The notes: a model not told the origin generated them from the letters alone. Shown: positions 3,065 to 38,754, counted from the first letter of the stretch. The stretch is DNA of 42,674 bases from a virus (IMGVR_UViG_3300046535_002266:1-42674); one strand, 5' to 3'. Made by a program: numbers and translations.

Positions 3065-3067
3065 CCT

Positions 3068-3304: not shown

Positions 3305-3314
3305 GGCGCCCGCC

Positions 3315-10503: not shown

Positions 10504-10510
10504 CAATCTT
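10504..10510 (+). promoter_or_regulatory. Motif A (CAATCTT) before baseplate LysM/gp25 gene
   Basis: Exact CAATCTT, 6 bases before ATG 10517. There is no Shine-Dalgarno sequence here, so the motif itself occupies the place where one should be. Confidence 0.5.
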
Positions 10511-10516
10511 TGAAGC

Positions 10517-13030
10517 ATGCCGTTCGAGCCAGGGGTCCTCTCATCCGCGCTCTCCGCGGGGGACTGGGCCCTCGCCAACAAACCTGCGCCCGCGCAGACC
10601 ACCGACAAGACCTGGTTCCGCAACGAGGCCGTCACGGGCGGGAACTGGAATCAGCTCTTCCCGTACCAGCTGATCATCGTCGAGCAGACCGGTGACGGCC
10701 GCTACACGCGCCCCCAGCCGGGCCTCACGATGGGCGGCCAGTCGGCGTTCCAGTACACGCTGCCGATGCCTCCGGAGTCGTTTCAGATCTCGATGCCGTT
10801 CGCCATCAACAACTCGGTGACGCTCGGCGGCCACATCGAAGAGCACAACGGCGCGCCGACACGCATGATCACGATGACCGGCACCACGGGTGTGTTCGCC
10901 GGCCGCGGGCAGGCCATCCAGCCGCAGGCCTTCCAGTGGCGCGACGCCGTGTTCGCCGGCACCGTCACGGCAGCTCGCGCTACCGCCACGGCCGCCAAGA
11001 GCATCGTCAACCCGAAGTTCACCGACAACACGGTCCCGCAAAGTGATTTCAACGGCACGACCGAGGGCTCCGGGGCGCTGACGGGCTGGTACCAGTTCCG
11101 CTTGCTCCAGCTCTTCTTCGAGTCGTACGTCGAGATGAAGAAGAACAAGGAGAAGCGCAACACCCGCCTCGCGCTCGCGACGTGGAAGGACGAGGCCGTG
11201 TACCTCGTCTCGCCGATGCAATTCGTCGTCGACAAAAACTCCGGCTCGCCTCTGGAGTACCACTACAACCTCACCTTCAAGGCGTACAAGCGCGTGAAGC
11301 TCGACCGCGGCCTCGCCGACAAGGTGAAGCCGTACCGCCCCATCGACGTCAGCCCCGGGGCATTGTCGAAGACGCTCAACACCCTCACGGCTGCGCGTCT
11401 GGTGCTCCAAGGCGCGAAGAAGACACTGATGGCCGTCGGTGGCGACGTGGATCGAACCATCTTCGAGCCGATCCGCCAGCTCACTCTACTTTGCAAGGAC
11501 ACGCTGTCGCTGCCGCTGTCTGTCTCCGACCTCTCCGACTCCATCGCGCAGAACACGAAGACCGCGGTCCTTCAGATCGTATCGGTCCGCAAGGACAAGG
11601 ACGACTGGTTGCAGAACGTGAAGCGCGTGGGCCGCCACGTCTCCGCCAACGCCCAGGCCATCCACGACGCCATCAAGTCCCTCGGCACCGAGAAGGCCGA
11701 CAACACGGACGTCAGTACGATCTCACAGGCTCTCGTCGACTCGCACCCGGCCAACTCCGCGTTCGACAAGCCCAGCGACAACTACGACTACTTCTCCAAC
11801 GTCCCCGTCGGTGATTTGAAGCTCTCGCCGTCGATGCAGAACGCCATCGCGGCCGAGCGTCGCCGCGTGCACAACCTCACCCGCCTCGACTACCAGAATA
11901 TGGCGAACGGGATCCAGTCGTCGGCAGACGCGTACGCTGCCGCCATCGGCGCCGGCCACCCGACGTACAACGCCATCTACGGCCTCCAGGCCCCGACGTC
12001 CACGATCATCGACAACCCCACGGACGACGATTTCAACACGCTCTTCTACCTGAACCAGCTGGCATTGGAGATGCGTCGTTTCGCGGTCGCGAACACCGAC
12101 GACGCGAAGCTCACCTCCATCGCAGCGGTGGCTGGTCTTGCCACCCGCTCGGGCATCGCCTTCACCCAGCCGCGCTCGAAGTTCGCGGTGCCGTTCCCGT
12201 ACGGCGGATCGCTGGAGCAGCTCGCGTTCCAGTACCTCAAAGATCCTGACCGCTGGATCGAAATCGCGTCGCTCAACGGCCTCCAGACTCCGTACGTCGA
12301 CGAGGTGGGCTTCCAGCTCACGCTGCTCGTCAACGGCGCGAACAACACGCTGTTCGTGTCGAGCGCCGACCACCTCTTCGTCGGACAGCCAGTGTTCATC
12401 AGCTCTGACACCACGGTTCGCACTCCCCGCACCATCACCAAGATCGACATCCTGGCGCTCAACCAGGTCCTCGTCACCGTGGATGGCGAGGCGAACATGG
12501 ACCAGTTCATCACCCTGGCGCACGCGAAGCTGGAGGCCTTCCTCCCGAACACCGTCAACAGCCAGCAGGTCATCTACATCCCGTCCGACTTGGCACCGAA
12601 GGACCGAGACTTCACCACCAAGAGCATCCCGGGCGTCGATGAGCACGACAGCTTCATCGCTGTCGGCGGCGTCGATCTGCTCCTGACCCCCGCCAACGAC
12701 CTCGTCATCACCCCCGACGGCGACAGCCGCTGGTCGGTGGGGTTGACCAACATCATCCAGAAGGTCCGCCTCGCGATGTCGACCGTCCAAGGCACGCTCA
12801 GCCGCCATCCGGACTACGGCCTCCCCATCGAGGTTGGCATGAGTCTCGCGGACTTGAACGCGGCGCAGATCGTGCGCGCGGTCGAGGGCATGTTCGCTGG
12901 CGACCCGACGTTCACGGACATCAAAGCCGCGCACATCGACGTCACCGGTCCGCTCGCCGCGCTGAACATCGCTGTCGAGGTGGCCGGCGTCAGCCAGATC
13001 ATCCCGATTTCAGCGCAAGTCGCGCCGTAA
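10517..13030 (+). CDS. Baseplate protein with LysM-like and gp25-like domains
   Basis: The 837-residue product combines several tail modules. Residues 1-250 are beta-rich (PPESFQISMPFAINNS, HYNLTFKAYKRVKLDR), of a type seen in tail/baseplate assembly proteins. A helical middle (about 270-540) follows. Residues 560-605 (GGSLEQLAFQYLKDPDRWIE) resemble the LysM-like fold of baseplate hub-tube connectors. Residues 722-837 (LLLTPANDLVITPDGDSRWS; then LSRHPDYGLPIEVG) match a gp25/lysozyme-like baseplate wedge domain. In most contractile phages gp25 is a separate gene of about 130 residues. It is followed by the baseplate J-like gene, the usual order for gp25 and gp6-type wedges. Confidence 0.7.
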   Translation: MPFEPGVLSSALSAGDWALANKPAPAQTTDKTWFRNEAVTGGNWNQLFPYQLIIVEQTGDGRYTRPQPGLTMGGQSAFQYTLPMPPESFQISMPFAINNSVTLGGHIEEHNGAPTRMITMTGTTGVFAGRGQAIQPQAFQWRDAVFAGTVTAARATATAAKSIVNPKFTDNTVPQSDFNGTTEGSGALTGWYQFRLLQLFFESYVEMKKNKEKRNTRLALATWKDEAVYLVSPMQFVVDKNSGSPLEYHYNLTFKAYKRVKLDRGLADKVKPYRPIDVSPGALSKTLNTLTAARLVLQGAKKTLMAVGGDVDRTIFEPIRQLTLLCKDTLSLPLSVSDLSDSIAQNTKTAVLQIVSVRKDKDDWLQNVKRVGRHVSANAQAIHDAIKSLGTEKADNTDVSTISQALVDSHPANSAFDKPSDNYDYFSNVPVGDLKLSPSMQNAIAAERRRVHNLTRLDYQNMANGIQSSADAYAAAIGAGHPTYNAIYGLQAPTSTIIDNPTDDDFNTLFYLNQLALEMRRFAVANTDDAKLTSIAAVAGLATRSGIAFTQPRSKFAVPFPYGGSLEQLAFQYLKDPDRWIEIASLNGLQTPYVDEVGFQLTLLVNGANNTLFVSSADHLFVGQPVFISSDTTVRTPRTITKIDILALNQVLVTVDGEANMDQFITLAHAKLEAFLPNTVNSQQVIYIPSDLAPKDRDFTTKSIPGVDEHDSFIAVGGVDLLLTPANDLVITPDGDSRWSVGLTNIIQKVRLAMSTVQGTLSRHPDYGLPIEVGMSLADLNAAQIVRAVEGMFAGDPTFTDIKAAHIDVTGPLAALNIAVEVAGVSQIIPISAQVAP

Positions 13031-13046
13031 CAAGCACTTACGACCA

Positions 13047-13053
13047 CAATCTT
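13047..13053 (+). promoter_or_regulatory. Motif A (CAATCTT) before baseplate J-like gene
   Basis: Exact CAATCTT in the 33-base gap, 10 bases before ATG 13064. A G-run (CTGGGGGACC) follows and could serve as ribosome-binding site. Confidence 0.5.
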
Positions 13054-13063
13054 CTGGGGGACC

Positions 13064-16000
13064 ATGGCTGACACGCCCACTCCGCGCTCGTACCCGCAGA
13101 CCCTCGGCGATATGTTCGATGCCTTCCTGTCGAAGCAGGGCATCCGGTCGCTGCGTGTCGGTGGTCCGATCGTGTCCTTGCTCGAAGCCGCCGCCCAGAG
13201 CGACATGCGGAACGCGCAGGACATCTTCAACCTGCTGACGAGCGCGGACCTCGACAACGCCACCGGCCTCGCGCTCTCGCGCATCGGCCGCGCCGAAGGC
13301 ATCCCCAAGCTGGAGATCACGCCGTCCGCGGGCGTCGTGACCCTCTCGGACACGAGCTTCACCAAGAAGGCGACGAGGCTGTTCCAGGGCGCGCCGGCTC
13401 CGATCGTGGGCACGGGCGTCGTGACCCCCATCAACGTCGTCGACGCCAGCTCCTTCCCGGCGCCTGGCCCGACCACCAAGATCTACATCGGCCGCGGCAC
13501 GAACAACTACGAAGGCCCCATCCGCTACACGGCTATCGTCAACGCCGGAAACCACTGGGAGATCACACTCGCCACTGCGACGACGAGGTTCCACAACACG
13601 ACCGAGACGGTCATCCTCGCCCAGGGCGACAACCGCACCATCGGCCCCAACACGGTCGTGCGCACGCCGCAGGCGAGCGTGGCGAGCGCCATCGACTTCC
13701 GCACGCTGTACTCGGTGACCCTGCCCGACGGTGAGACTGAGGTCTCGAACATCCAGGTCGTGGCCCAGCTCGGGGGATTGATCGGAAACGTCATCGCGGG
13801 CGCCATCAGCGAGTTCTCGACCGCGCCCTTCAACGGCGCGAAGGTGTCCAACACGCGTCCGTTCACCAACGGGCGTGAGACGGAGTCGGACGACGACTAC
13901 CGCGAGCGCATCCGCAACGTGCGCGCGAGCCGCCAGCTCGGCACGGCGCTTGCGATCACGACCGCGGTCACCGGCATCACCGCCTTCGACGAGAACAAGC
14001 GCATCAACTCCGCCAGCCTCGTGAAGCGCTTCGGCTTCCCGGCCACGCTCTACATCGACGATGGCACCGGCTACGAGGAGCGCACTTCCGCTGTCGCCGT
14101 CGAGAGTCTGATCGATGACGCCACGGGCGGCGAGACCCACTTCGAGACCACCCAGCGCCCGATCGCTCGTGCGTTCGCCATCACCACCAACGTCGCCCCG
14201 TTCGTGCTCCGCTCGACCGACCAGCTCTCGGTCAAGGTCGGTGGCACGACCTACACGCACTCGTTCAACGCGGACGACTTCCACTCGATCTCCAACGCCA
14301 GCGCGTTCGAGGTCGTGGCGTCGATCAACTCGAACCCGGACATCGCCTTCGTCGCTCGCACCGCAGAACAAGGATCCAAGGTCGTTGTGTTCGCGAACGC
14401 GGACACCAACGAGGATGTCGAGATCATCGAGAACCAGGGTGGGACCAACGCCAACGCCGGCCTCGCGTTCCCAGCCGGCGTGAACTACACGATGCGCCTC
14501 TACAAGAACGACCGCCTGCTCGTGAAGGACGGCGTCATCGCTGTGCTCCGCAGCCAGCCGTTCGCAACGTGGAACACCGTCTCGGGACCGCAGACCCTCA
14601 CCGTCGCTGTCGACAGCACGCCCTCGATCACGTACACGTTCGAGGATCAAGATTTCATCGATGCCAACACCGGCTACGCAACTCTTGGCCGGAACTCACC
14701 CGCGGCCTGGGCTGCGGTGGTTAATGCCAAGATCCCGGGTCTCACCGCAACGGTGGACGCGGGCAAGCTCGTGCTCACCTCCAACGCCGGCCCCGTGTCA
14801 CGGGCTGCGGTGGAGATCTCGGGTGGTTCCCTGGTGGCGGCGCACTTCTTCGAGAGTGGTGTCGCCCTGGGCGCTCGCCGTGACTACGTCCTCGACCGCA
14901 ACGAGGCCCAGATCGTTCTCAGCCAGATCTTGGAGGCGGGTGACCGTCTCACTGCCGGCTCGTTCGCGACCCGCGCTTTCGTCGAGTCCGAGGACATGAC
15001 GACGGTCTCCCTTGCCAGCGACGCCCACCTCTGGTGGCTGGTCGATGGGACCGCCAACATCATCGAGCACGGAGTGACCCCCACCACCAGCCTGGACATC
15101 GCGGTCGCAAAGACCGAGGACTTCGGGAATTTGGTGACCATCACCGCCGGCTCGGCCGTGTTCGCGAACGTCCAGCCCCAGGACTGGATGATCCTCTGGG
15201 ACAGCTCCGTTCCCACCACCCTCCGCGGCGTGCACCGTGTGGCCGACGCGAACTCGACCACGGTCACGATCGAACGCCACACCTCGCTCACCTCGCGCTA
15301 CGGCCACCGCTCGGTCCGCATCCCGGGCATCGGAACCGCCATCGGCCAGATCTTCACTTGCGGTGGCGCCATCAAGCCGCGCAGCACCATCGCTTTGACC
15401 GACGTCCCTGACGGCGTCATCGGAACCGCCGAGCTGTACGACCCCAACACCAAGATCACCACCCCCGCCGCGCCGATGAACACCTCGCGCGCCTTCCACA
15501 CGGCGACAGTGTTGGCAAACGGCAAGGTGGTCGTGGTCGGCGGCGTGAACGGGTTCGGCGTCCACACGGGATCTATCGAGACGTACGACCCCGTCGCCGA
15601 CACCTGGACGACCTCGGCCGTGTCCACCACGACCCAGCGCAAGAACCACACGGCCACGCTGCTCACCGACGGTCGTATTTTGATCGCGGGCGGCGACAAC
15701 GGCGGCGCGGCGAACGACAAGTTCCAAGTCTACGACCCCTCGGGCGACACCATCACCGTCGAGGGTACGATGGTGAAAGCCCGTTCGCACCACTGCGCAG
15801 TGAAGCTGCCGGACGACACGGTGCTGATCGCGGGCGGCTACGATGCCGGCGGAGTCGACCTCGTGGACGCCGAACGCTTCACGCCGGGTCCCGACACTAC
15901 CGTTGCAACGGGCAGCATGAGCGTCCCCCGTTCGTGCTTCGGCATGTCCGACGTCGAGGTGACCCCGACGAAGGTGATTGCAGCCGGCGGCAAGCTGGGC

Positions 16001-19000
16001 GGCATCGGCGCAGACAGCTGGGAGCTGTACGACATCGCTGGCGGCACCTGGGGCGGCGGGAGCACGATGTTCGTCAACTTCGAGCACAAGCCTCTCATCA
16101 AGCTCAAGAACGGCCACGTCGTCGGCCTCAACGCCTATACCAGCGACAACCCTCCGGAGTACGCCGCGTTCACCTACGACGGCACCACGTTCACCGAGCT
16201 GCACACGCCGATCCCGCCGTCGTGCATCGATCAGAACAACCCGCGCTGGGACAGCGAGTACGTCGAGCTTCTCTCAGGCGACGGCACGACCGTCAAGAAC
16301 CAGGTCGCCAGCATCGGCGGCTCCTTCGTCCTGGGCGGATCGTTCGGCTACCAGGCCTCGTCGGTGCTGAACGTCTACGACGAGCCCGGCAACACCTGGA
16401 ACGCTCCCGAACCGGCCGCGACCACCAACCTGCTCCTGGGCGACGCCGGCATCGCCTTCGTTCGCTCGGACGCATTCGTGCAGGACACCCTGATCCCGAG
16501 CGGTGGCAGCTACACCGCCAACTCGCTCGCAGACGCGTTCAATGCCGACCTGGTCGGCGCAACGGCGTCCGTCTACAAAACCACCAAGCTCCGCGTCAAC
16601 ACCAACACCTTCGACGATACGGGCGACATCGCCATGGTCACCCGCGACGTGACCGCCGAAGCGATCCTGCTCGACCCGGCGCCGGCCACCGAGAACCTGG
16701 TCCCGCACCTCGGAGCGGTGATGAGCGCCAACAGCGACCTCGGCACCCCGTCCTTCGAGGACGTGCGCGTGGTCAGTCAAGAGGCGGGGGTGCCGCACGC
16801 CAAGCCGGTCGTCACCAGCACCGTCATCGGACACGACTACGCCATCGTCGGCCTCAAGAACCTGGCCCGCGGCACCGACGGCGGCAGCCCGTTCAGCCTC
16901 GGTGTTCCCTTCACGAACCTGCGCGCCAACAGCAACTTCAAGTTCGCCACCCGCCTGAAGACTCGCGTGGTCGACGGAAACCTCGTCTCCACCCTCGAAA
17001 CCCGCGATGCTCCGCCCCAGGTCTGGGGACCGTGGGACCGCGTTGTCGCTGCGGCTCCGTTCGCAATCAGCCCGAACGGAAACCTGGACGTTCTCGTCGA
17101 CAACGACAACGACAAGCGCTACCCGATCAATCTGTGGCGCACGCTCCAGACCGTCGGATCTACGTACGGTTCGTCGAACGACTTCCGTGACGGCGACGAC
17201 GCTGGTGCAAGCCTGGCCGCCACTTTCGGTCTCGACTACGACTTCAACGACATGGCCGTCTACATGGCGTCGCGCGCGGTGGCCTTCCCGGCCGACGCCG
17301 CTCGCCGCATGGTCTTCCGCTACTTCCGCCTCGGCCCCGATGGCGACGGCGTGCGTCTGCGCTTCGGCAATCCCGACGCCCCCAGCACCAATCTGAAGGT
17401 CGCCACCTTCATGGACGACGGCAATCTGACCAACGTCACGATCAAGCTGAAGTCCGGAGCACCCCGCACCCCCACGATCCACAACACGACCCGTGTCGGA
17501 CAAGGTATCACCGCGATCACGGCTGGCGGCACCGCTACGTTCGTCGAGGTGCTGAACCTCGCCATCTCGTCGGCGTCGCGTACCACGAGCGTCGTCACCG
17601 CGACCGTGACTCTGCCGGCCGGCATCACCGACCACGGCTTCGCCATCAACGACCGCGTCTGGGTGCAGTCGACCGACGTGAACTTCTCGTCGGGTCTGAA
17701 GTCGATCTCGGGCGTCACCGCGACCACCTTCGACTACTCCGAGTCCGCGGGTGACATCGGCGCCACCGCCAACATCGGCACGGTTTCGTTCGACGGCCAG
17801 GGCGAGTCCTCGTTCACGGGCTCGGGCACGGTCGCGCTGGACTTCTACCGCCTCAACGACCCGACGAATCTCGTCTCCTACGGGAACGCCACGTTCCAGG
17901 TCAGCTCGGTTCCCGCGGGCGGTCACCACATCTACGTCCTTTCAGGCGATCAAATCGACGGCGCCAGCCAGTTCGTGGCCACCACGCTCACGTGGGTCCC
18001 CATCGTCAGCACCGCCTACCTCCAGGTCTTCGCGAACAGCCCGCAGACGGCCGGCGCCATCGCCACCGCCATCCAGGCTCTGCGCGACGCGAGCGGCTCG
18101 ACCAATCCGATCTCGGCGAAGGAGACGGGCACGGGCCTTAACAACATCTCCCAGAACACCTGCGACGAGCTGGACGCATCCGAGTTCTGGTACGTCCTGC
18201 ACGACGGCGTGAACTGGGTCAAGACCACCACGCTGCCGCTACTCATCTCGGACGACTACACTCTGGAGTTCAAGGCCCCCATCACGGGAGCGTTGGCCAC
18301 CAACTCCGACTGGGAGAACGAAGAAGTCCGCATCGTACCCATCACGACCAAGAACATCGTGGACTGGCTGAACACGCCGACGGTGACGGGTCTGTGGACC
18401 GTGGCTGATATCGAAGCTGCCGGCGCGGGACACCACGTCCAGCTCTCGACCCTGACCGCAGGCTCGGATGGCGGCGTCAAGGTTCAGGGCGGGCTCGCGA
18501 ACAGCGTCACCGCTCCGATCGTGGGCTCGCCTGTTTTGACGGGTGGCTCGTCGGCTGTCTCGACCGTTGCACTGCTCGACGCTGACGGCTTCACGAGCGG
18601 CATGTGGTTCCGCATCCAGAACGAGAACCAGCTCCCGAAGCCGACCATCATCGCTCCGGGTCTCGTTCTCAACTCCTGGGACTCCGCGGGCTTGATGACC
18701 TTCGCTTCCCCGATCTACACCCAGAATGCTGGTCCCAGCCAGCTCCGTGTCCAGTTCGAGCGCCAGGGTCGATTCGTGGCGATCTCCGACACCGGCTCGA
18801 CGGATGCCCCTTTCTTCGGATCCATTCCCCACGGGTCCTGGTTGCGCGTCTCTCCGGCGACCTCACCGACCATCGGCCAGGTCCAGGCCGCGAACCAGGG
18901 CATCTTCCGCATCCTCCGCTCCACGGCGGGCGTCGGCGGAACCTCGGGCACGATCTACATCGAGAACCCGATCTGCGTCGAGGAAATCTCGGAGTGCTTG

Positions 19001-19846: not shown

Positions 19847-19851
19847 AGCCC

Positions 19852-19858
19852 CAATCTT
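19852..19858 (+). promoter_or_regulatory. Motif A (CAATCTT) before tandem paralogue pair
   Basis: Exact CAATCTT, 9 bases before ATG 19868, followed by a GAGGGGAG ribosome-binding site. Confidence 0.5.
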
Positions 19859-19867
19859 AGAGGGGAG

Positions 19868-21843: not shown

Positions 21844-21846
21844 ACC

Positions 21847-22548
21847 GTGGCAGATCTTGATGCAGATCTGCAACTGGGCAACTCCAAGGTTGCCCCGAGT
21901 GCAGCCCTCTTTCGAGAGGACCACCTCCAGTACGACGCGGACATCCAGCTCCCACCGACGGGCGGGTTCGAATCGCTGCGCAGCTACTGCACGTGCGAGG
22001 CTGGCACGGCCACGATCCACACGACCGGTGTCACCGCGTTCCTGGACCACCTGGAAGTCACGTTCAACGCCAACGTCGTGCTCTCGGGCCCTGCGCTCGT
22101 GCCCGCGAACTGGTACATCTCCGTCACCGGTCCTGGCCGCGCGGTGCAGGTCGGCAGCGTCGAGGTCGTCAGCTCGGACACCGTTCGCCTCGGCGTGACC
22201 GCGCAGACGCTGGACGCGGCGTACACGCTCAACCTCCCCTCGCTCGGAATCACGAGCGACGCGTTCGGGATCTTCACGGGTCTCTATAGTCTCGACTTTC
22301 TGGGCGTGCCCACGCCGGTCAATGTCCAGATGATCCGCGCCGTCGATGCTCACCACATCGACGTAATCTTTGCCATTGCCGTCGACGAGACCAGCGCCTC
22401 AGATCCCACCAACTACACACTCAGCAACGGCCTCACCGTCACCGGGTCCCACAAGATCACCGACTACTGGTACAGGCTCACCAACCAACCTCGTCAGGTC
22501 GACGGCACCAGCTACACCCTGACCGTCTCCAACGTGGACCCCAAGTAA
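21847..22548 (+). CDS. Tail protein with Ig-like beta domains
   Basis: The 233-residue product starts with GTG at 21847, 4 bases after the preceding stop. The N-terminal part ADLDADLQLGNSKVAP leads into two similar beta-sandwich-like segments containing DHLEVTFNANV / HHIDVIFAIAVDE and SDPTNYTLSNG, a pattern seen in bacterial SbsA-type Ig-like domains. The next gene has the same NPSNYTLTG element. It abuts that gene with no spacing. Likely a baseplate or fibre connector. Confidence 0.6.
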   Translation: MADLDADLQLGNSKVAPSAALFREDHLQYDADIQLPPTGGFESLRSYCTCEAGTATIHTTGVTAFLDHLEVTFNANVVLSGPALVPANWYISVTGPGRAVQVGSVEVVSSDTVRLGVTAQTLDAAYTLNLPSLGITSDAFGIFTGLYSLDFLGVPTPVNVQMIRAVDAHHIDVIFAIAVDETSASDPTNYTLSNGLTVTGSHKITDYWYRLTNQPRQVDGTSYTLTVSNVDPK

Positions 22549-23559: not shown

Positions 23560-23563
23560 GCCA

Positions 23564-23570
23564 CAATCTT
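23564..23570 (+). promoter_or_regulatory. Motif A (CAATCTT) before tail fibre gene
   Basis: Exact CAATCTT, 7 bases before ATG 23578; followed by CTAGTCG with no Shine-Dalgarno sequence. Confidence 0.5.
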
Positions 23571-23577
23571 CTAGTCG

Positions 23578-24930: not shown

Positions 24931-24931
24931 C

Positions 24932-25663
24932 ATGCCCGGCCTTGCGCACGGGTTCCAGCCGAACATGTTCGACCACCTGGTCCTTGACCTGGATGCGGAC
25001 AACGTTTCGGGCAACGATGGCGACTCGATCGCCACGTGGCCGAATGCTGCGCCCACGGGCAGCGGAAACAACGCCACCCAGGGCACTGGAGCTAACCAGC
25101 CGCTCCTGAAGAAGACCAGCAACGGCATCAACGGTCACAGCGTCCTTCGTTTCGACGGTTCCGCCTCGTACATGAGCGGAAGCTACGCCCTGGGCTCCAC
25201 GGGCGTGACCGTTTTCTTCGTGGCCCGTACCGGAGGGTCGCTCAATCTCTACGGGACCGTCATTCACCACTCCGACAATCCCACGCACGCCGACTGGGCC
25301 CTCGCTCTCGGTAACGGCGCCGACACCTTCCAAAACGGTTGGGTTGGACCCAGTGCCAGCCTTGGCCTCGGGAACAACACGAGGACGATCAACACCATCT
25401 ACCGCGGCACCGCATTGTACGACAAGGTTAACTGGACCCTCTCGGGCACCTGGGCGACCAACACCGTAGCCGACACCAGCTTCCCCACGGCCAGCCCGGT
25501 CAACTACCACGTGGGAGTTTGGTTCTCGGGCGGATCACCGGGCGTCGCTGGCGTTCACCTCATCGGTGACATCGCGAAGATCCTTGTTTTCAACGTCGCC
25601 CTCACCGCCGCCCAGATCGCGGCAGTAGAGCAGTTCCTCAAAACCAAGTACGCCATCTCGTAA
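24932..25663 (+). CDS. LamG/ConA-like lectin protein
   Basis: The 243-residue product looks like a concanavalin A-like jelly roll: HLVLDLDADNVSGNDGDSIA, VLRFDGSASYMS, VTVFFVARTGG, GDIAKILVFNVALTAAQIAA and the closing EQFLKTKY. This ending is typical of LamG-type modules that bind carbohydrates. It starts one base after the preceding stop and precedes the Ig-repeat gene. Likely a surface-binding part of the tail fibre set. Confidence 0.7.
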   Translation: MPGLAHGFQPNMFDHLVLDLDADNVSGNDGDSIATWPNAAPTGSGNNATQGTGANQPLLKKTSNGINGHSVLRFDGSASYMSGSYALGSTGVTVFFVARTGGSLNLYGTVIHHSDNPTHADWALALGNGADTFQNGWVGPSASLGLGNNTRTINTIYRGTALYDKVNWTLSGTWATNTVADTSFPTASPVNYHVGVWFSGGSPGVAGVHLIGDIAKILVFNVALTAAQIAAVEQFLKTKYAIS

Positions 25664-25669
25664 AGCACC

Positions 25670-27241
25670 ATGTTCGGCTTTGACGGTCCATTCGGCGCAT
25701 CCACCCCTCTGGCCATCTCGCCGGCATCATCGCCGCGCGTGGTTGGACACGGGTTCACCTTCTCCGCGTCAGGCGGTACGGGCTCGGGGTACGTCTTCAG
25801 TTTCGTCGCGAACAACAGCGGCGGCACCCTCAATACCAGCACCGGGGCGTACGTCGCGGGCAGCACCCCGAACGTCACCGACACGATCCGCGTAACGGAC
25901 AGCGGAGCGAACACGGCCGACGCCACGGTCGCCGTCAAAGCCGCGATCGTAATCAGCCCCTCGTCCATCACGCTGCCGCCGCTCGGGACCCACACGTTCA
26001 CCGCAACCGGCGGCGTCAACCCCGGCGGCCCCGCCTTCCAGTTCGTCTTCGGCTGGAACAACTCCGGCGGCACGATCAACAGCACCACCGGTTTGTACAC
26101 TGCCGGCTCGACTCCCAGCGTGACTGACAAGGTTCGCGCTACCGACGTCCAGAATAACGAGGACATCGCGGTCATCACGGTCGGGCCGAGTGTCAGCATC
26201 TCGCCGACCACTCCGACCGTCATCGCTCTGAATACGCAATCGTTCACGCCGAGCGGCGGAAGCGGCACCGGATACGTCTGGTCGCTGACAGTCAACAACT
26301 CTGGCGGCTCGATCAACGCCAGCACCGGTCTCTACACCGCTGGATCTACCGGCAGCGTCAGCGACACGGTCCACCTGGTCGACTCACTCGGCAACTCCGC
26401 CAATACCGTCGTCAGCGTTGTCCCCGGCGTCAGCCTCAGCCCGTCCAACCCGACCAAGGCTCCTCTGGAGTCTCAGACGTTCGTCGCCAGCGGCGGCACT
26501 GGCACGGGATACGTCTACTCGATCTCCGTCAACAACAGCGGTGGCGGCATCAACCCAATTTCGGGCACCTACGCCGCCGGTCCCACGGGCAGCGTCACCG
26601 ACACGGTGCGGGCAGTCGACTCGGGCGGCAACATCGGGACGACCAACGTCACCGTCACCGCCGCGCTCAGCATCGCTCCTGCGAACCCGAACGTACACTT
26701 CAACGGGACCCAAGCCTTCACCGCAATGGGTGGCAGCGGCATGGGCCTCGTCTGGTCCCTCTCCGTCAACAACTCCGGTGGGTCCATCAATGCCAGCACG
26801 GGCCTGTACACCGCCGGCTCCGCCTTCGGCGTCAGCGACACGATCCACGTGGTCGACTCACTCGGAGCTGTCGCCAACACGACGGCGAACGTCACCCGAC
26901 TGATCGCAACGTGGGACATCGAGCCGTCCGTGGACACCCAGGGGAATTTGCGCTTCACCTTGGTCAGCAGCGATATTTTCGACATGTTCCTGGTTCACGA
27001 CGGAGACTTGGCGTACATCTACGGAGACGAGTTCCAGCCCACGAACACCAACGGCACGTTCACGATCAAGGTCGTCTTCGTCACGGACTCGGAAAAGTGG
27101 TTCGAGATCGAGAACCCTCTCGGCATCGAAATGCTCGGCATCGAACAGATCAACTTCCAGGACTTGATGTTCTTCCGCCCGAAGCGCCGCACCATCTACG
27201 ACAACCCCCGCCGCGTCATCGTCTGCGAGAACGAACAATGA
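25670..27241 (+). CDS. Ig-like repeat protein of the tail
   Basis: The 523-residue product contains five tandem Ig-like repeats of about 78-85 residues, each with a GGxGxGYVxS strand, NNSGG turn, LYTAGS loop and xVxDTxxxxDS strand (about 15-410). The last 110 residues form a different domain (DIFDMFLVHDGDLAYIYGDE, DSEKWFEIENPLG). Ig-like repeats on phage tails commonly bind host sugars weakly. The ATG at 25670 lacks a clear ribosome-binding site. Its TGA overlaps the ATG of the kelch gene (ATGA). Confidence 0.75.
   Translation: MFGFDGPFGASTPLAISPASSPRVVGHGFTFSASGGTGSGYVFSFVANNSGGTLNTSTGAYVAGSTPNVTDTIRVTDSGANTADATVAVKAAIVISPSSITLPPLGTHTFTATGGVNPGGPAFQFVFGWNNSGGTINSTTGLYTAGSTPSVTDKVRATDVQNNEDIAVITVGPSVSISPTTPTVIALNTQSFTPSGGSGTGYVWSLTVNNSGGSINASTGLYTAGSTGSVSDTVHLVDSLGNSANTVVSVVPGVSLSPSNPTKAPLESQTFVASGGTGTGYVYSISVNNSGGGINPISGTYAAGPTGSVTDTVRAVDSGGNIGTTNVTVTAALSIAPANPNVHFNGTQAFTAMGGSGMGLVWSLSVNNSGGSINASTGLYTAGSAFGVSDTIHVVDSLGAVANTTANVTRLIATWDIEPSVDTQGNLRFTLVSSDIFDMFLVHDGDLAYIYGDEFQPTNTNGTFTIKVVFVTDSEKWFEIENPLGIEMLGIEQINFQDLMFFRPKRRTIYDNPRRVIVCENEQ
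25712..26905 (+). repeat. Five tandem coding repeats (Ig-like units)
   Basis: Imperfect direct repeats with a period of roughly 237-250 bases. The best-kept part encodes NNSGGSIN-STGLYTAGS; near-identical DNA is seen at about 26296-26345 and 26767-26818. Expansion or contraction of the array by recombination is plausible. Confidence 0.7.
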
Positions 27242-29400
27242 AATTCCTAGACATCGTCATCCCGGCGACTACCGAGGTTGTCGGTCGTGGACCCGGCCTC
27301 GCCGCGTACCTGAAGGGCCTCGCTGCGCTCGCGGGCGAGAACTTCTCGCTGATCCGCACGGGCGATGGCGTCGTCACGGTCGACGTCGACGCGTCACACG
27401 GTCTCTCGGTCGGAGATCAGATTTTCATCGACGGCGTGTTGCCCACGGGCGAAGTGCCGGCCACCGACTCCGGAACCCCGAGCGGCAACTTTGCGAGCCC
27501 GAACGATACTCAGTCAGGCATCACCGCGGCCTCGATCCACTCGACCAACAGCCAGGCCGGCACGTACGAAGGCGTGTTCAGCCGCGCGATTCGCAACCCC
27601 GAGGGGAGACTGATCATCATCGGCGGAGCCACCACTTCCGACGGCCTCACCTTCACCCCGAAGGACAACTTCACCGTGCTGGAAGTGACCGGCGAGACCG
27701 TGTCTGGCAGCGGCGGACGTGCGGTCGACTACCTCTGGACCCAGATCGCCCCGGACGGAGCACACGGCTTCAACCTCCCGAACTTCGGGTACCGCAACTT
27801 CGCCGCGTCCCTCCTGACCGACGGCCGTATTCTCTGCACGGGCGGAGCGATCGGCGACGATCTCACTGGCACCCCGGTGCTCGGCTACGACCTGCTCACC
27901 TTCATTCCCCCGGACTCCGTCTCACAGCAACAGGGGATGTTCGACAGCCGAGTCGCGCACGGACAGTGCGCACTGAGCGATGGCGGAGCGCTGGCCTCCG
28001 GCGGCTGGGCGGTCGCCGGCACCCCGCTCGCCACGTCCGAGCGCTTCGACGTGACGACCGAGAGCTGGGCCAACGACGCGGTCATGAAGGTCGCCCGCAT
28101 GCACCACGAGCTGGTCGCACTCGACGACGGACGCGTGCTCGCGATCGGAGGTCAGAAGAACTCCGCTGCCACCAACCTCATCAACCGTTGCGAGATCTGG
28201 AACAGTATCACCTGGGAGCTGACGGGCAACATGACGTACGCCCGCACCCAGTTTGGAGTACTGAAGCTCCCCGACGGCCGCGTGCTCGTCATCGGCGGTA
28301 ACGGCTACAACCCGAGCCGCGCACACTCACCTGGAGCACTCAGCTCCTGCGAAATCTTCGACCCGAAAACGGGACTGTGGAGCACGATCGCTTCCATGCG
28401 CAACGGGCGCTCGCATCCGGCCATCGCGTACCTCCCGACGGAGAACGCCGTGTACGTGACCGGCGGCGCGAACGGCGTGTTCAACGTCGAGGTCCTGGAC
28501 TTGGACACCATGCGCTGGCACGTCTCCATGGCCCAGATCCAGACTCCCCACCTCGACCCCACGGGCGGCCTGGTGGGCACCGACGTGTTCGCCATGGTTG
28601 GCGGCTGGGACCACGCCATCTCCACCGAGAAGACCAACCAGATCGTCGTCCCGGGCGAAGACCGCGTGTGGGAAGGCGCCGGCATCAACGGCATGCACCG
28701 GGTGGCCGAGGTTCCGGACGGTACCCATGTCATCGTCCACACCCGCGAGTACGACTACAGCCACTCCTACACCGTGGCCCGCGCGGGCGCTGACGTGACC
28801 CCGATGCGCGCCGAGGCTGCGCCTTCGACGGTTCCGGGCCCGTTCTCGTACGACGTCAAGACCGGGCTCGCGATCACCGCAACGGCTGGTACCACCGACA
28901 CGGCCTTCAACCGCGGCGTCCACTACTCGTCCGTGCACCTCACGGGCTTGGACCCGGCACTCGACTTCCCCGATGAGGAGGGGTGGCTGGTGTTCAACTT
29001 CGGCTACCACAACATGGTCGGTCCCGTCCGCTACCTGGGACGCCTGAGCGACGAGGACTTGATCCTCGATGCCGACGTACCATTCAGCGCGACCCTCCCG
29101 GCCGGTGCAACCGTGCGATTGCTGTCCGGACGTGTCCCGTTCGAGCCGGCGGCAGACCACCTGGTGGGCAACTTCTACGTCACCGGCACGGCCGCGGGCC
29201 GCGAAGCAGCCCGCCAGATCATCAACGACATCGTGGCCGCCGGCAAGCAGGTGTTGGTGACCGTGATCTACCCGGGCGACCGCGGCCTGGGCGGCGAGGG
29301 CTTCCCGCAAGGCGGCAGCTACAAGCTCTCCGACAAGGTCTCCGTGTGGGGCGGCGACGAGCTGGACAGCGAACTTCCGGCAGCCAGGAAGGGTCCGTAA
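27238..29400 (+). CDS. Kelch-type beta-propeller tail protein
   Basis: The 720-residue product has an N-terminal attachment region (MKFLDIVIPATTEVVGRGPG), then kelch/galactose oxidase-type blades from about residue 175 to 475: FAASLLTDGRILCTGGA, HELVALDDGRVLAIGG, FGVLKLPDGRVLVIGG, HPAIAYLPTENAVYVTGG. These blades resemble those inside the baseplate J-like protein. The C-terminal domain includes AAGREAARQIINDIVAAGKQ. The start was set at 27238 (ATGA overlap with the Ig-repeat gene), not at the longer frame. Propellers of this type bind sugars or proteins; the catalytic copper ligands of true galactose oxidase cannot be confirmed by eye. Confidence 0.75.
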   Translation: MKFLDIVIPATTEVVGRGPGLAAYLKGLAALAGENFSLIRTGDGVVTVDVDASHGLSVGDQIFIDGVLPTGEVPATDSGTPSGNFASPNDTQSGITAASIHSTNSQAGTYEGVFSRAIRNPEGRLIIIGGATTSDGLTFTPKDNFTVLEVTGETVSGSGGRAVDYLWTQIAPDGAHGFNLPNFGYRNFAASLLTDGRILCTGGAIGDDLTGTPVLGYDLLTFIPPDSVSQQQGMFDSRVAHGQCALSDGGALASGGWAVAGTPLATSERFDVTTESWANDAVMKVARMHHELVALDDGRVLAIGGQKNSAATNLINRCEIWNSITWELTGNMTYARTQFGVLKLPDGRVLVIGGNGYNPSRAHSPGALSSCEIFDPKTGLWSTIASMRNGRSHPAIAYLPTENAVYVTGGANGVFNVEVLDLDTMRWHVSMAQIQTPHLDPTGGLVGTDVFAMVGGWDHAISTEKTNQIVVPGEDRVWEGAGINGMHRVAEVPDGTHVIVHTREYDYSHSYTVARAGADVTPMRAEAAPSTVPGPFSYDVKTGLAITATAGTTDTAFNRGVHYSSVHLTGLDPALDFPDEEGWLVFNFGYHNMVGPVRYLGRLSDEDLILDADVPFSATLPAGATVRLLSGRVPFEPAADHLVGNFYVTGTAAGREAARQIINDIVAAGKQVLVTVIYPGDRGLGGEGFPQGGSYKLSDKVSVWGGDELDSELPAARKGP

Positions 29401-29825
29401 TGCCTTCGATCGTACTTGCATCAGCACAGGTCATCCTGTTTGTCAACGGAAACCCGTTCGGTCGGGTCAACCGCTTCAGCTACAGCATCGACACCCCGCG
29501 CCGCAAGATCCACACCGTCGACTCGGTGCTGCCGTTCGAGCTGGCCACGGGCGTGACCAACGTGTCAGGCTCGATGGGGCTCTACCGTACCCACCTCGAC
29601 GGCGCCGTGGAGGGGCCGGGCATGGTGGCGCCCCTGGAGGAGCTGCCGCGCGAGAAGTACTTCAACATCCTGCTGATCGACCTGGTCTCTCAGACCGTGA
29701 TTTTTCAAGCTGATTTCTGCTCGGTCGAGAGCCAGTCCTGGTCGTTCGAAGCCAAGAGCCTGGTCTCGGGCGCGGTGAACTTTTCTGCACTTTCGTACAA
29801 CAATGAGGTGCGTCCGCTCGGGTGA
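29400..29825 (+). CDS. Virion structural protein (tail-associated)
   Basis: The 141-residue product begins MPSIVLASAQVILFVNGNPF and has features of small tail tube or tail-completion proteins: a beta-rich N-terminal part (FGRVNRFSYSIDTPR), VSGSMGLYRTHLDG, and a C-terminal VESQSWSFEAKSLVSGAVNF strand pair. The combination RKIHTVDS-loop and late FEAKS strands resembles tube-like folds, but the match is by eye. The ATG overlaps the TAA of the kelch gene as TAATG. Confidence 0.6.
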   Translation: MPSIVLASAQVILFVNGNPFGRVNRFSYSIDTPRRKIHTVDSVLPFELATGVTNVSGSMGLYRTHLDGAVEGPGMVAPLEELPREKYFNILLIDLVSQTVIFQADFCSVESQSWSFEAKSLVSGAVNFSALSYNNEVRPLG

Positions 29826-29843
29826 TTCAGTAGACTTAATCTT
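29824..29843 (+). promoter_or_regulatory. Promoter-like motif (B-type plus TAATCTT) before tRNA genes
   Basis: GATTCAGTAGACTTAATCTT. The first 11 bases match motif B at 7840-7860 exactly, and the last seven match motif A with T for C. It is the only site seen where both motifs are joined and it lies 67 bases before the first tRNA gene. No open reading frame follows it, which fits transcription of the tRNA region. Confidence 0.45.
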
Positions 29844-29890
29844 GAGATCACCGTGAAGCACCTGTCATCGTCCAGTAGCTCTTCTTCGTC

Positions 29891-29907
29891 GAGTCGCTAA
29901 GCGACTC
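29891..29907 (+). other. Perfect 7-bp hairpin upstream of tRNAs
   Basis: GAGTCGC-TAA-GCGACTC forms a 7-bp stem with a 3-base loop, 3 bases before tRNA-Ser. There is no T-run after it, so it is not a standard terminator; an RNA-processing element is more likely. Confidence 0.4.
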
Positions 29908-29910
29908 CGT

Positions 29911-29995
29911 GGAAAGTTCTGGGCCGTGGGGTCCGATCCGCCTCGAAAGCGGACATAGCTACCTTCGGGTAGGGGGTTCGACTCCTCAGCTTTCC
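29911..29995 (+). tRNA. tRNA-Ser (anticodon CGA)
   Basis: The acceptor stem GGAAAGT/GCTTTCC pairs over 7 bases (one G-T). The anticodon stem TCCGC/GCGGA encloses the loop CTCGAAA, giving anticodon CGA, which reads UCG serine codons. A long variable arm (CTACC-TTC-GGGTAG) fits serine tRNAs. The T loop is TTCGACT with a 4-bp stem and one mismatch. The D arm can be drawn with two wobble pairs. CCA is not encoded and the discriminator base is T, not the G usual in bacterial tRNA-Ser. UCG is frequent in the neighbouring structural genes. Confidence 0.75.
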
Positions 29996-30001
29996 TCCTT
30001 C

Positions 30002-30090
30002 GGAAACGACGTCGCATGTCGGTTTTGCGCAGCAGGTTGCTAACTTGCCGGGCCCGCAAGGGCCCCGAGAGTTCGACTCTCTCCGTTTCC
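30002..30090 (+). tRNA. tRNA-Ser (anticodon GCT)
   Basis: The acceptor stem GGAAACG/CGTTTCC pairs fully. The stem GCAGG/CTTGC encloses loop TTGCTAA, giving anticodon GCU for AGC/AGU serine codons. The long variable arm (GGGCCC-GCAA-GGGCCC) and the T arm GAGAG-TTCGACT-CTCTC are perfect. The D arm is unusual: the standard 10-13/22-25 stem does not pair, and the best alternative (CGCA/TGCG) is shifted by 2 bases. CCA is not encoded; the discriminator base is T. It begins 6 bases after the first tRNA gene. Confidence 0.75.
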
Positions 30091-30102
30091 TCTGGCGACA
30101 CG

Positions 30103-30109
30103 CAATCTT
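30103..30109 (+). promoter_or_regulatory. Motif A (CAATCTT) after the tRNA genes
   Basis: Exact CAATCTT, 10 bases before ATG 30120. AAGGG between them could act as ribosome-binding site. It separates the tRNA genes from the next structural gene. Confidence 0.5.
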
Positions 30110-30119
30110 AAGGGTAACC

Positions 30120-31832
30120 ATGGCCGTTCTCCGCCAAGCTAACCTCCTGGGCAATCAGCGCGTCGACATCCCGCACCTGCGCTCGATCGAGTCGGCGGTG
30201 GCCGGCGACATCGACCTTCTCGCTGGCGTCATGATCGCCGGCAAGGCGCCGCTCATCACCGAGGGCTTCTACGTGCTCTCGACGGGCATCACCATCGCGA
30301 CCGGACTCAAGATCCGCGTCGCCGACAGCAGCCTCATTCACTTCCTTGCGTCCGAGTCCGGATCGATCTTCCACGTGCCGTCCGATCGCCCCGACGAACA
30401 ACTGAACTCGGTCAACCCGCGCATCATCGGCAGCTTCACTTCGGGCATGGTCAACTACGTCGGCCTCGACTTCGTTCGCGAAGCGGACGATACGACGGTC
30501 GACCTCGTCGAGTTCATCGACTCGGACTCGGAGCTGGAGACGCCGGTCCAGGTGCCGCTCGGGCGCACGCTCGACTACCGCATCGTCATCACGACGCTGG
30601 ACTTCGACAACAACCCCGGTATCTGCCCGATCGCGAAGGTCACGCTCGACGACGCCAACAACGTCACCGTGCTGGAGGATGCGCGTCGTTTCGCATTCCG
30701 CCTCGGCTCGGGCGGCACGATCCCGAACATCAAGAACTCCTATGCGTGGCCGGCCGGCCGCGCGGAGAACACGAGTGGTGACGTGTTCGTCGGCGCCGAC
30801 AAAGCCATCGGCAATTTCAAGGACTGGATGGACGCGATCATGTCGCGTATGTGGGAGGTAGGCGGCGGCGAGTACTGGTACTCACCCACCAACCCGATCA
30901 ACGAACGCCTCGCGCGTACGGGCTCTCCGTTCGTCTCGAACGGCGAGTACTTCGAGTGGGACGGAGCGAACATTCACTGGAAGGGCCTGGTCTGGATCTT
31001 CGCGAACTCGACCGGCGTCGTCAACCCGGTCCAGGACCAAGCTTCCGACTCGGCGGGCCTCACCGACCTCGCTGACGGCGAGTGTATCTACGTCGACGTC
31101 GACCGCACGCAGGACACCACGATCATCGCCGCCAAGGCTGCCCTCGCGACGCTGGGGTCGCCAGAGATCCCGGGCTCCCGCTACGTCATCGCGTGGCGCC
31201 ACAGCAACGACATCTACACGCGTGACCAGTCGTACGCGGTCAACTCTGCGTTCAAGAACGCGACCACCGCGGCGGGTGGCATGGTCAAGCTTTCGGCCAC
31301 GAACGGCACCACCTCGTATCCCGCTCAGGTCGCGACCGTCGACGACATCAACTACTTCGCGTTCGCAGGAGGTCTGAGCCGCAGCGGTGACTTCTTCGGC
31401 GGCGCAGGCGATCTCCAGATCGGTGGTTGGGGTCCGGAAGACAACAACGTCCTCATCAGGACCACCGAGACGCAGTACCAGACAGTGATCGACGGCGATA
31501 ACAACTGGAGCATCAACGCAACGTCGGCACTCTGCGTTCGCCAGATGCACCCGTTCACGTCAAGCACCTTCTACCGCATCCTGACTCTCCAGGGTTTCGA
31601 CGGCAATGACGCGCTCAACAAGGACAGCTTCTCGTTCGAGGCTGCCGGCACGATGCAGTGGAGGATGATCGAGGGCACTCCGGGACCGCCGGCCCACACC
31701 TTGACGAGCCCTCTCCAATTCAAGACCTACTTCCGTACAAACGGCTTCACCACGCCCAATATTCGCGACCAGCAATGCATCATGGACCGTGACGGCAACA
31801 TTACCGTCACGTGGGAAGGACCGGCTTACTAA
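30120..31832 (+). CDS. Large virion structural protein
   Basis: The 570-residue product starts MAVLRQANLLGNQRVDIPHL, preceded by motif A and AAGGG; a longer in-frame ORF reaching back into the tRNA genes is rejected. N-terminal residues 1-90 resemble phage attachment regions (SGITIATGLKIRVADSSLIH-like), followed by beta-rich domains (about 100-300) and a C-terminal part with YFAFAGGLSRSGDFFGGA and TFYRILTLQGFDGND. I recall similar proteins beside fibre genes in large phages, but no function is assigned. Its TAA overlaps the next ATG (TAATG). Confidence 0.65.
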   Translation: MAVLRQANLLGNQRVDIPHLRSIESAVAGDIDLLAGVMIAGKAPLITEGFYVLSTGITIATGLKIRVADSSLIHFLASESGSIFHVPSDRPDEQLNSVNPRIIGSFTSGMVNYVGLDFVREADDTTVDLVEFIDSDSELETPVQVPLGRTLDYRIVITTLDFDNNPGICPIAKVTLDDANNVTVLEDARRFAFRLGSGGTIPNIKNSYAWPAGRAENTSGDVFVGADKAIGNFKDWMDAIMSRMWEVGGGEYWYSPTNPINERLARTGSPFVSNGEYFEWDGANIHWKGLVWIFANSTGVVNPVQDQASDSAGLTDLADGECIYVDVDRTQDTTIIAAKAALATLGSPEIPGSRYVIAWRHSNDIYTRDQSYAVNSAFKNATTAAGGMVKLSATNGTTSYPAQVATVDDINYFAFAGGLSRSGDFFGGAGDLQIGGWGPEDNNVLIRTTETQYQTVIDGDNNWSINATSALCVRQMHPFTSSTFYRILTLQGFDGNDALNKDSFSFEAAGTMQWRMIEGTPGPPAHTLTSPLQFKTYFRTNGFTTPNIRDQQCIMDRDGNITVTWEGPAY

Positions 31833-32782
31833 TGGCACTTCGCGGACTCGGCGGGATCGACCCGTTTCTCTTCGGCAACGGCATCGCGGGCGACATCTCG
31901 CACACGACCGACTTCACGCAACTGTTCGACGCCGTCACCAGGAACTGGAAAGCGGTGAAGGCCTCGGGCGGTGACCCGAACTTCACGGTGACCGCTCCCG
32001 GTTGGCGCATCTTCGCCACCCGCGAGATCCACATCGGCGGCGGCGTGACGCTCTCTGCGCGCGGCACCATCGGCGGCACCAACTCGGGCGGGGCGGCGGC
32101 GGGTGGAGCCGGCGCAACGGCCGGCACCATGGGTTCCGGCACCGCAGGCGGGAGCGTGTCCTTGAACGTCGGCCTCACTCCCGGCGCCGGGGGCGGCGGT
32201 GTCGACAACACGCGCAGCATCGGTGGTTCCGGTGGTGCGGGCGGCACGGCCGGCGGCGGGATTGGCGGCCCTGGCGGCGTCGCGGACGCGGACGACCTGC
32301 TCGGCACAGACAACCAGTGGAACCACCTGCTGAACGGAGCGGGCGTCGTCAACGGCAGCCTCTTGACGTTCCGTGGCGGGTGCGGCGGCGGTGCCGGCGG
32401 GGCGGCTGGCAGCGCGGGTGGCACGAACCACCCCGGGGCCGGCGGCGGTGGTGGTGGCATCATCATCCTCGCGGCGCCCCTCATCACGATCGATATCGGA
32501 GCACTGGTCACGGTCAAAGGTGGCGACGGCGGGGACCAATCCGGTACTACCTGGGACTCCGGCGGCGGCGGCGGCGCTGGTGGCGGTGGCGGTGCCATCA
32601 TCCTGATCTACGGCCGCCTCAACCTGAACGGAGAACTCAACGCCGACGGCGGCGACGGCGGCAGCGGCAGCTCGGCTGGCAAGGGCGGCTTCGGCGGTGC
32701 GGGCGGACACATCTACCACTTCGGCGGCACGGATGACACCATCTTCCGCGAATCCGGCAGCGCGGGCGCGAACGCATCGTAA
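31832..32782 (+). CDS. Gly-rich tail-tip adhesin-like protein
   Basis: The 316-residue product has a short N-terminal domain (MALRGLGGIDPFLFGNGIAG), a beta-rich segment to about residue 85, and a Gly/Ala-rich region from about 90 to the end with many runs of GGxGG type (GGGVDNTRSIGGSGGAGGTA; GGAGGHIYHFGGTDD). This resembles T-even-like gp38-type adhesins and lectins with poly-Gly helices, which carry the receptor-binding loops. The start overlaps the previous stop (TAATG), and so does the end with the lysin gene. Receptor binding is inferred. Confidence 0.7.
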   Translation: MALRGLGGIDPFLFGNGIAGDISHTTDFTQLFDAVTRNWKAVKASGGDPNFTVTAPGWRIFATREIHIGGGVTLSARGTIGGTNSGGAAAGGAGATAGTMGSGTAGGSVSLNVGLTPGAGGGGVDNTRSIGGSGGAGGTAGGGIGGPGGVADADDLLGTDNQWNHLLNGAGVVNGSLLTFRGGCGGGAGGAAGSAGGTNHPGAGGGGGGIIILAAPLITIDIGALVTVKGGDGGDQSGTTWDSGGGGGAGGGGGAIILIYGRLNLNGELNADGGDGGSGSSAGKGGFGGAGGHIYHFGGTDDTIFRESGSAGANAS

Positions 32783-33270
32783 TGCCCACGCTCGCGGAAC
32801 TCGCCATCCAGATCGCGCTGTCGTACGACGGCGTGCGTGAGCATGGCGGCAACAACTGCGGTCCCGAGGTCGAGATGTTCCAGAAGAGCATCGGCCTCGA
32901 ACCGGGTGATCCCTGGTGCGCGGCCTTCGTGTGCTTCTGCATCCAGCAGGCCGCAGAGAATCTTGGAGTCAAGCCAAGTTTTCAGTACGGCGGCAGCGTC
33001 TACAAGATCTGGACCCGCAACCCGGACCTTCAGCTGTCGGCACCGACTGACAACTGCATCTTTCTCCTCGACCACGGCCTCTCCAAGAAGGGCACGCGCA
33101 TCGGCCACACTGGTTTCTGCGTGGCGATCAACCAGTCCCACAGCGAAACGCTGGAGACGGTCGAGGGCAACACCAACGCCGCGGGCTCCCGCGACGGTGA
33201 CGGCTGCTACCACAAAAGCAGAGAGTTGTCCGAGTTCCAGAACGGATATGGCTGGCTGAAGATCGCATGA
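32782..33270 (+). CDS. CHAP-domain cell-wall hydrolase (endolysin-like)
   Basis: The 162-residue product matches the CHAP cysteine/histidine amidohydrolase/peptidase family. The nucleophile Cys46 lies in GDPWCAAFV, His109 in RIGHTGFC and the third polar residue (Glu128/Asn130) in VEGNTN. CHAP enzymes cleave peptidoglycan peptides or amide bonds. No signal peptide is present, so lysis would need a holin, or the protein works as a virion-associated lysin. Its place among tail genes favours the second. Start overlaps the previous stop (TAATG) and its TGA overlaps the ATG of the HNH gene. Confidence 0.85.
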   Translation: MPTLAELAIQIALSYDGVREHGGNNCGPEVEMFQKSIGLEPGDPWCAAFVCFCIQQAAENLGVKPSFQYGGSVYKIWTRNPDLQLSAPTDNCIFLLDHGLSKKGTRIGHTGFCVAINQSHSETLETVEGNTNAAGSRDGDGCYHKSRELSEFQNGYGWLKIA

Positions 33271-33670
33271 AAACCTGCACTCAATGCAAAGTAAATAAGA
33301 GCGAGTCTCAATTTGGTCGAGACAACTGGAAACGCTCTGGGTTGAATTCGTCCTGTAAGGAATGTCGCAAGGTCTCGGGAAGAGACTCGCAGTTCAAGCT
33401 TTGTTTTGGGATCACCTCGTCCCAGCGCGACGCCATGGCAGTGGCCCAGGGCGGTAGGTGCGCCGCCTGCGGGACGACCGAACCGGGCGGAAAGTGGAAC
33501 CAGCTAGTGGTCGATCACGACCATCGGACGGGGCCATTCGAGGACTCCTCTGCAATAACTGCAACGCTGGGATCGGCTTCTTCAACGATTCCAAAGAGCG
33601 CCTGGAGGCCGCTGCTGCCTACCTCAGCCCGCCGCCCAGTTCAGGACTCTCCGCCGCCCTCATCTTCTAA
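33267..33670 (+). pseudogene. Endonuclease VII-like HNH gene with frameshift
   Basis: The first 86 or so residues (MKTCTQCKVNKSESQF ... [10 protein letters not shown]) form the zinc-binding and DHDH half of an endonuclease VII-type HNH protein. The expected continuation ([20 protein letters not shown]) is in the -1 frame from about 33534, ending at 33670. The break falls at the GGGG run at 33530-33533: one more G would restore a single frame of 135 codons (134 residues). Without the shift the frame runs on through the next gene, which is meaningless. Either a mutation, a sequencing error or programmed slippage. The protein resembles the HNH half of the fusion at 2195-3064. Confidence 0.75.
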
Positions 33671-33674
33671 GCCC

Positions 33675-33681
33675 CAATCTT
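33675..33681 (+). promoter_or_regulatory. Motif A (CAATCTT) before small structural gene
   Basis: Exact CAATCTT, 6 bases before ATG 33688, in a TCTTATAGAC context with no Shine-Dalgarno sequence. This copy, CTTATAGACATG, most closely resembles motif B (GATAGAAATG). Confidence 0.5.
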
Positions 33682-38734: not shown

Positions 38735-38754
38735 CCATTTCTATCGAATCTCAG
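38735..38754 (-). promoter_or_regulatory. Promoter-like motif B before peptide deformylase
   Basis: Minus-strand CTGAGATTCGATAGAAATGG, ending 3 bases before ATG 38731. It overlaps the end of the upstream gene and supplies a GGAG ribosome-binding site at its 3' edge. Confidence 0.5.

Follow-up and report, generated by a model that had tools for sequence, protein, structure and literature searches.

Why does one seven-base word, CAATCTT, stand a few bases ahead of the start codons of six genes in a viral DNA fragment, and what would read it? The stretch analysed here, hereafter the window, is the 42,674-base IMG/VR record IMGVR_UViG_3300046535_002266. It has no end repeats and is probably a fragment of a virus genome. 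The initial annotation offered two answers: the -10-like element of a phage polymerase or sigma factor that makes leaderless messages, or a site bound by a translation regulator. The best reading of the sequences compared below is that CAATCTT represents an undescribed class of -10-only late promoter which would give rise to many leaderless late mRNAs. The motif is not described in the Mx1 genome paper, and a text search for CAATCTT as a phage promoter returned nothing relevant from a literature in which most subscription papers lay outside the scope.

Judged from its genes, the window is a piece of a large myovirus akin to Myxococcus phage Mx1 (169.6 kb, 55.5% GC), its closest named phage. 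Mx1-like viruses are a little-known group of large viruses from soil. The plus strand of the window carries baseplate, virion, endolysin-like, endonuclease and fibre genes, and the minus strand encodes an IMP dehydrogenase (IMPDH), a deaminase/endonuclease VII, a phage integrase family protein, a peptide deformylase and others. The late module of the Mx1-like phages (baseplate, baseplate J, kelch, endolysin, deformylase) has a homologous module in the window, with the peptide deformylase and endolysin-like genes likewise present. Searches of named phages by DNA similarity or with the protein of 25670-27241 gave no relatives, none was confirmed among the bacterial genomes scanned for baseplate relatives, and an Rfam search of the window gave no match. 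Two further features of this DNA were observed. An endonuclease VII-like gene at 33267-33670 is split over two frames, with its N-terminal part in frame with 33267 and its end in the frame that stops at 33670, which could be decay or a sequencing error. The virion genes at 26050-26860 contain imperfect internal repeats (self-matches of 65-77%).

CAATCTT occurs seven times in the window, always on the plus strand, with no copy on the minus strand (Table 1). Dinucleotide shuffles of both strands contain 1.9 copies on average, and seven were reached in 1 of 100 shuffles. Six of the seven copies lie upstream of an ATG, with gaps of 6, 10, 9, 7, 10 and 6 nt between motif and start codon in the order of the table, which agrees with the 6-10 bases originally proposed. 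Among all 7-mers in the 50 nt upstream of the called genes, CAATCTT is the most enriched (6 of its 7 copies; binomial p 2e-9). Because the word had been noticed before this value was computed, other genomes have to carry the argument. The initial annotation had noticed no exact copy inside genes; this does not hold, as the copy at 413 is antisense within a minus-strand gene. Its observation that three of the six genes have no Shine-Dalgarno sequence was borne out for the genes at 10517, 23578 and 33688, as was the presence of TAATCTT ahead of tRNA genes. A second TAATCTT copy lies at 22364, inside the gene 21847-22548.

Table 1 Features of the window discussed in the text.
Feature	Coordinates	Strand	Remarks
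CAATCTT copy, judged a chance match	413..419	+	antisense inside the - strand gene 126-1262
CAATCTT, predicted late -10 element	10504..10510	+	predicted +1 at 10517, the A of ATG (leaderless); 6-nt gap also at the orthologous G010 and Mx1 baseplate genes
Baseplate gene, 837 aa, first after the element, no Shine-Dalgarno	10517..13030	+	phrog_975 baseplate protein; 37% identity to Mx1 baseplate assembly protein
CAATCTT, predicted late -10 element	13047..13053	+	predicted +1 near 13060; 4-nt leader; 10 nt to ATG, GGGGG in gap
Baseplate J-like gene, 2260 aa	13064..19846	+	phrog_6; 36% identity to Mx1 baseplate J-like protein
CAATCTT, predicted late -10 element	19852..19858	+	predicted +1 near 19865; 9 nt to ATG 19868
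CAATCTT, predicted late -10 element	23564..23570	+	predicted +1 near 23577; 1-nt leader; 7 nt to ATG 23578; no Shine-Dalgarno
TAATCTT variant, predicted promoter of the tRNA pair	29837..29843	+	conserved island in G001 and G010
tRNA-Ser (CGA)	29911..29998	+	ARAGORN
Probable tRNA-Ser (GCT)	about 30002..30092	+	ARAGORN, relaxed threshold only
CAATCTT, predicted late -10 element	30103..30109	+	predicted +1 near 30116; 10 nt to ATG 30120
CAATCTT, predicted late -10 element	33675..33681	+	predicted +1 at 33688, the A of ATG (leaderless)

The motif was also examined in related genomes. Two near relatives of the window, G001 and G002, keep all or most of the copies. Their fibre region has been swapped, and the replacement genes bear a CAATCTT of their own directly ahead of the ATG (CAATCTTTACGCTATG in G001, CAATCTTAGAGTCATG in G002). 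Farther relatives (G010, G011, G013 and G014) were picked by baseplate protein alignment alone, blind to the motif; G012 proved to be the same phage as G013. The 182-kb G010 is colinear with the window; for comparison with the 33675 site, it has CAATCTTATAGACATG ahead of a 125-aa protein with a similar start. As the initial annotation had suggested checking, the same word precedes late genes in these phages, in one of them as CAATCTA, which is the enriched upstream word found de novo in G014. The motif of Mx1 lies ahead of the portal, tailspike, both baseplate and kelch genes and of other late genes, with gaps of 6 to about 36 nt. One group of IMPDH-sharing contigs, G003-G008 (33-42% GC where measured), was a false lead: the tested loci showed no 6-nt association, and no late-gene homology was used.

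The motif keeps to the late strand. In Mx1, 18 of the 87 late-strand genes have a copy within 45 nt upstream, and 0 of the 156 genes on the opposite strand do (p 3e-9); in G013 the figures are 13 of 30 and 0 of 77 (p 7e-9). The bias has p < 1e-3 in G011 and G010, p 0.012 in the window alone and a borderline 0.051 in G014. Many copies in the larger, lower-GC genomes lie away from gene starts. The arrangement is also kept between orthologs. Apart from the baseplate gene of the window, G010 and Mx1, a 6-nt gap is found ahead of a small protein in G010, G011, G014 and G015 (33-44% identity to the G010 copy) and ahead of two homologous proteins, one of Mx1 (36563) and one of G014, that share 38% identity. 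Five phages carry the motif upstream of the gene that follows the terminase, at 6, 7, 14, 16 and 16 nt; a translation signal tied to one position would not allow such variation.

The spacing between motif and start codon shows a sharp peak. As the gene finder miscalled parts of G001, the spacing tests were run directly on ATG-opened reading frames: for each motif copy we recorded the position of an ATG opening an ORF of at least 40 codons downstream. Across six genomes, 34 of 155 motif sites have such an ATG exactly 6 nt downstream. The neighbouring offsets hold 1 (5 nt) and 2 (7 nt) sites, and the next peak, at 9 nt, holds 7. When 209 permuted words were put through the same test, the maximum at 6 nt was 2 and the mean 0.14. 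A seventh genome, G015, adds one site to make 35. The base before the ATG is a pyrimidine at 35/35 of these sites, compared with 54% before other ATGs (p 5e-10). A Shine-Dalgarno sequence accompanies 2/35 of them, compared with 33/47 of the sites with a gap of at least 13 nt. No enriched word and no TTGACA bias was found upstream of the motif, and hence no detectable -35 element. Endonuclease VII or HNH families account for at least 7 of the 35 genes in this class; inserted endonuclease genes thus appear to bear the motif-ATG unit too.

In sigma-70-type promoters, the -10 hexamer is followed by six bases and then by the start site, which is usually a purine preceded by a pyrimidine. A fixed 6-nt gap with a pyrimidine at -1 is thus most simply read as placing the predicted +1 on the A of the ATG. 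In G013, ATGs also cluster 6 nt after an unrelated word, CTATAAG/A, which resembles an ordinary -10 element, and a pyrimidine precedes the ATG in 8/8 cases; this agrees with the same register and is an independent calibration of it. Within the window the gap is exactly 6 nt only at 10517 and 33688. The other four of the six sites have gaps of 7-10 nt, and three of them (13047, 19852 and 30103; 9-10 nt) contain a G-rich, Shine-Dalgarno-like stretch inside the gap. The predicted start at these three sites would give leaders just 3-4 nt long; the G-rich stretch may function in read-through RNA.

A candidate for the factor that reads the motif is found in the relatives. Mx1 carries a sigma factor gene at 2071-3078, which belongs to phrog_351 (the only PHROG matched) and has a weak Pfam region 2 match below the curated cut-off. 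Homologs of about 335-355 aa occur in G009, G010, G015 and G016. The family profile aligns to sigma-70/SigA from region 2 through 4.1 and stops at residue 372 of the 423-aa SigA; the reading frames themselves end before region 4.2. A sigma factor of this kind should not read a -35 element, which matches the absence of one upstream of the motif. The post-terminase copy of the motif is present in all five sigma-bearing phages (Mx1, G009, G010, G015 and G016). The window stops short of the sigma region, and it is from the colinear G010, which reaches it, that we infer such a factor in the window's virus. The fragments of G011, G013 and G014 gave no sigma match. An AlphaFold model of the protein was poor (mean pLDDT 47). 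In three phages (Mx1 3075-3539 and equivalents in G009 and G010), the gene immediately following that for sigma encodes a small conserved protein, a possible sigma partner.

The most probable explanation is that late promoters of the Mx1-like large myoviruses have CAATCTT (or YAATCTT; in one relative CAATCTA) as their -10 element, which a phage sigma factor would read and which would often make leaderless messages. The first of the two original proposals finds good support in the 6-nt ATG peak in distant relatives, the pyrimidine at -1, the loss of Shine-Dalgarno sequences in the 6-nt class only, the lack of a -35, the late-strand placement and the truncation of the relatives' sigma factor. 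RNA polymerase carrying a phage-encoded sigma with regions 2-3 and no region 4.2 would open the DNA at the element with no need of a -35, and the RNA would begin 7 nt downstream, presumably late in infection. For many late genes the element is set such that +1 would fall on the A of the ATG, which would yield a leaderless mRNA; for others it lies farther upstream, and the predicted leader carries a Shine-Dalgarno sequence.

A late promoter element could also be read by something else: a host alternative sigma factor, or the primary sigma of the host once a phage protein has redirected it, with the truncated phage sigma serving another purpose. We consider this unlikely. It is helped by the fact that the link between sigma and motif is our own deduction, by the sigma region not being seen in G011, G013 and G014, and by the presence in G010 and G013 of other enriched words ahead of other genes, from which it follows that several promoter specificities exist. 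Reading by the truncated phage sigma nevertheless remains the probable case. The motif stands at the orthologous post-terminase site in each of the five sigma-bearing phages, the missing region 4.2 fits the missing -35, and the Myxococcus phages Mx4 and Mx8 do not carry the motif before their genes; neither they nor unrelated contigs show a 6-nt association with ATG.

The second original proposal, a translation-regulator site, taken here more broadly as an RNA site near the start codon that is bound by such a regulator or by the ribosome and has no promoter function, draws on the closeness of motif and start codon in the window, where the motif lies mostly in short gaps between same-direction genes and read-through RNA is likely, and on the start-associated sequences of unclear role in Cluster K mycobacteriophages (PMC3203893). 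It was rejected because the spacing varies and the motif also precedes tRNA genes, and we hold it to be very improbable. The motif stands anywhere between 6 and 40 nt before the ATG, 13-40 nt before many starts, a Shine-Dalgarno sequence lies between at the longer spacings, and the orthologous post-terminase gaps differ as given above. The -1 pyrimidine rule is a start-site signature, and the motif is confined to the late strand. Least credible of all is that a common word in short intergenic gaps was retained by chance or shared ancestry among close relatives. Seven copies alone are only mildly above the shuffles, and G001 and G002 are near to the window, but relatives at 36-50% protein identity show the motif independently, the replaced genes of the divergent fibre region have their own copies, and the permuted words fail the spacing test; the held-out genomes refute this explanation.

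Among known systems, the late transcription of T4 offers a close parallel. Its late structural genes are served by one element at -10, with no -35, and by the sigma factor gp55, which has no sigma-4 equivalent (PMC2988020, PMC7892883). The Mx1-like phages share the single element at the -10 position, the late structural genes served and, by profile and ORF ends, a phage sigma that lacks a DNA-binding sigma-4 domain. They differ in the element, which is CAATCTT or CAATCTA and not the T4 late TATA box, in the sigma of about 335-355 aa that aligns through region 3 into 4.1, and in a predicted +1 that is often the ATG itself. A search of the sigma profile against the PDB listed cellular sigma factors and did not match gp55. 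Since the element differs and homology to gp55 was not detected, we regard the system as one that works like T4 late transcription, not as an instance of it. The large phages phiKZ and AR9 likewise use short elements near the start site, read there by phage polymerases, whereas a sigma-type factor is encoded here: phiKZ late promoters (TATG, +1 at G) depend on a phage multisubunit RNA polymerase, and those of AR9 (AACA-N6-TA/G) on a phage-encoded polymerase, with leaders of 26-491 nt (PMC5312081). Leaderless promoters have also been predicted in Cluster O mycobacteriophages (PMC4351075); these are of the SigA type, include a -35 and are few in each genome, unlike the one dedicated word found here at many late genes. 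The start-associated sequence of Cluster K, GGGATAGGAGCCC, has a Shine-Dalgarno-like core and sits at the start (PMC3203893). It resembles CAATCTT in being an asymmetric short word directly upstream of starts, in one orientation and ahead of genes of differing families; CAATCTT differs in its variable spacing (6-40 nt) and in having no Shine-Dalgarno sequence within the word.

Other upstream words accompany CAATCTT in these genomes. The word GATTCGMTA, of which CTATAAG/A of G013 is a part, lies upstream of many other genes in G013 (L052-L055; TTCGCTATAAG), G010 (GATTCGATAG), G015 and G016, and in the window at 38748 and 41058 on the minus strand. Its arrangement suggests leaderless messages in another expression class of G013. 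On the minus strand of Mx1 (e.g., 87542-117740), CTAGTAT stands about 24-32 nt before ATGs that have a Shine-Dalgarno sequence and can be read as marking leader-bearing promoters of that strand; GATCAAC occurs about 15 nt before starts in the same region. Two Mx1 ORFs, 17861-18226 (minus strand) and 48198-48623 (plus strand), are absent from the annotation as shown; each has the motif 6 nt before its ATG and begins with zinc-finger-like endonuclease motifs. The annotated start of the Mx1 prohead protease (OR576727, 13002) lies upstream of the motif.

For the Mx1-like phages, these results supply an explicit code for late promoters, and a sigma factor as its candidate reader, in a system whose host, Myxococcus xanthus, can be cultured. 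Motif placement also corrects gene starts: from the CAATCTT-6 nt-ATG arrangement, the true start of the Mx1 prohead protease is probably 13023. The many predicted leaderless late genes should be useful for learning how messages free of Shine-Dalgarno sequences are translated during infection. We see about even chances that late expression across this group of large phages comes largely from portable units, in which the start codon is joined to the -10 element that a phage sigma reads, with virion genes and inserted endonuclease genes alike leaderless and without a Shine-Dalgarno sequence. If so, translation would hinge on the ability of the host, native or modified by the phage, to start on a 5'-AUG.
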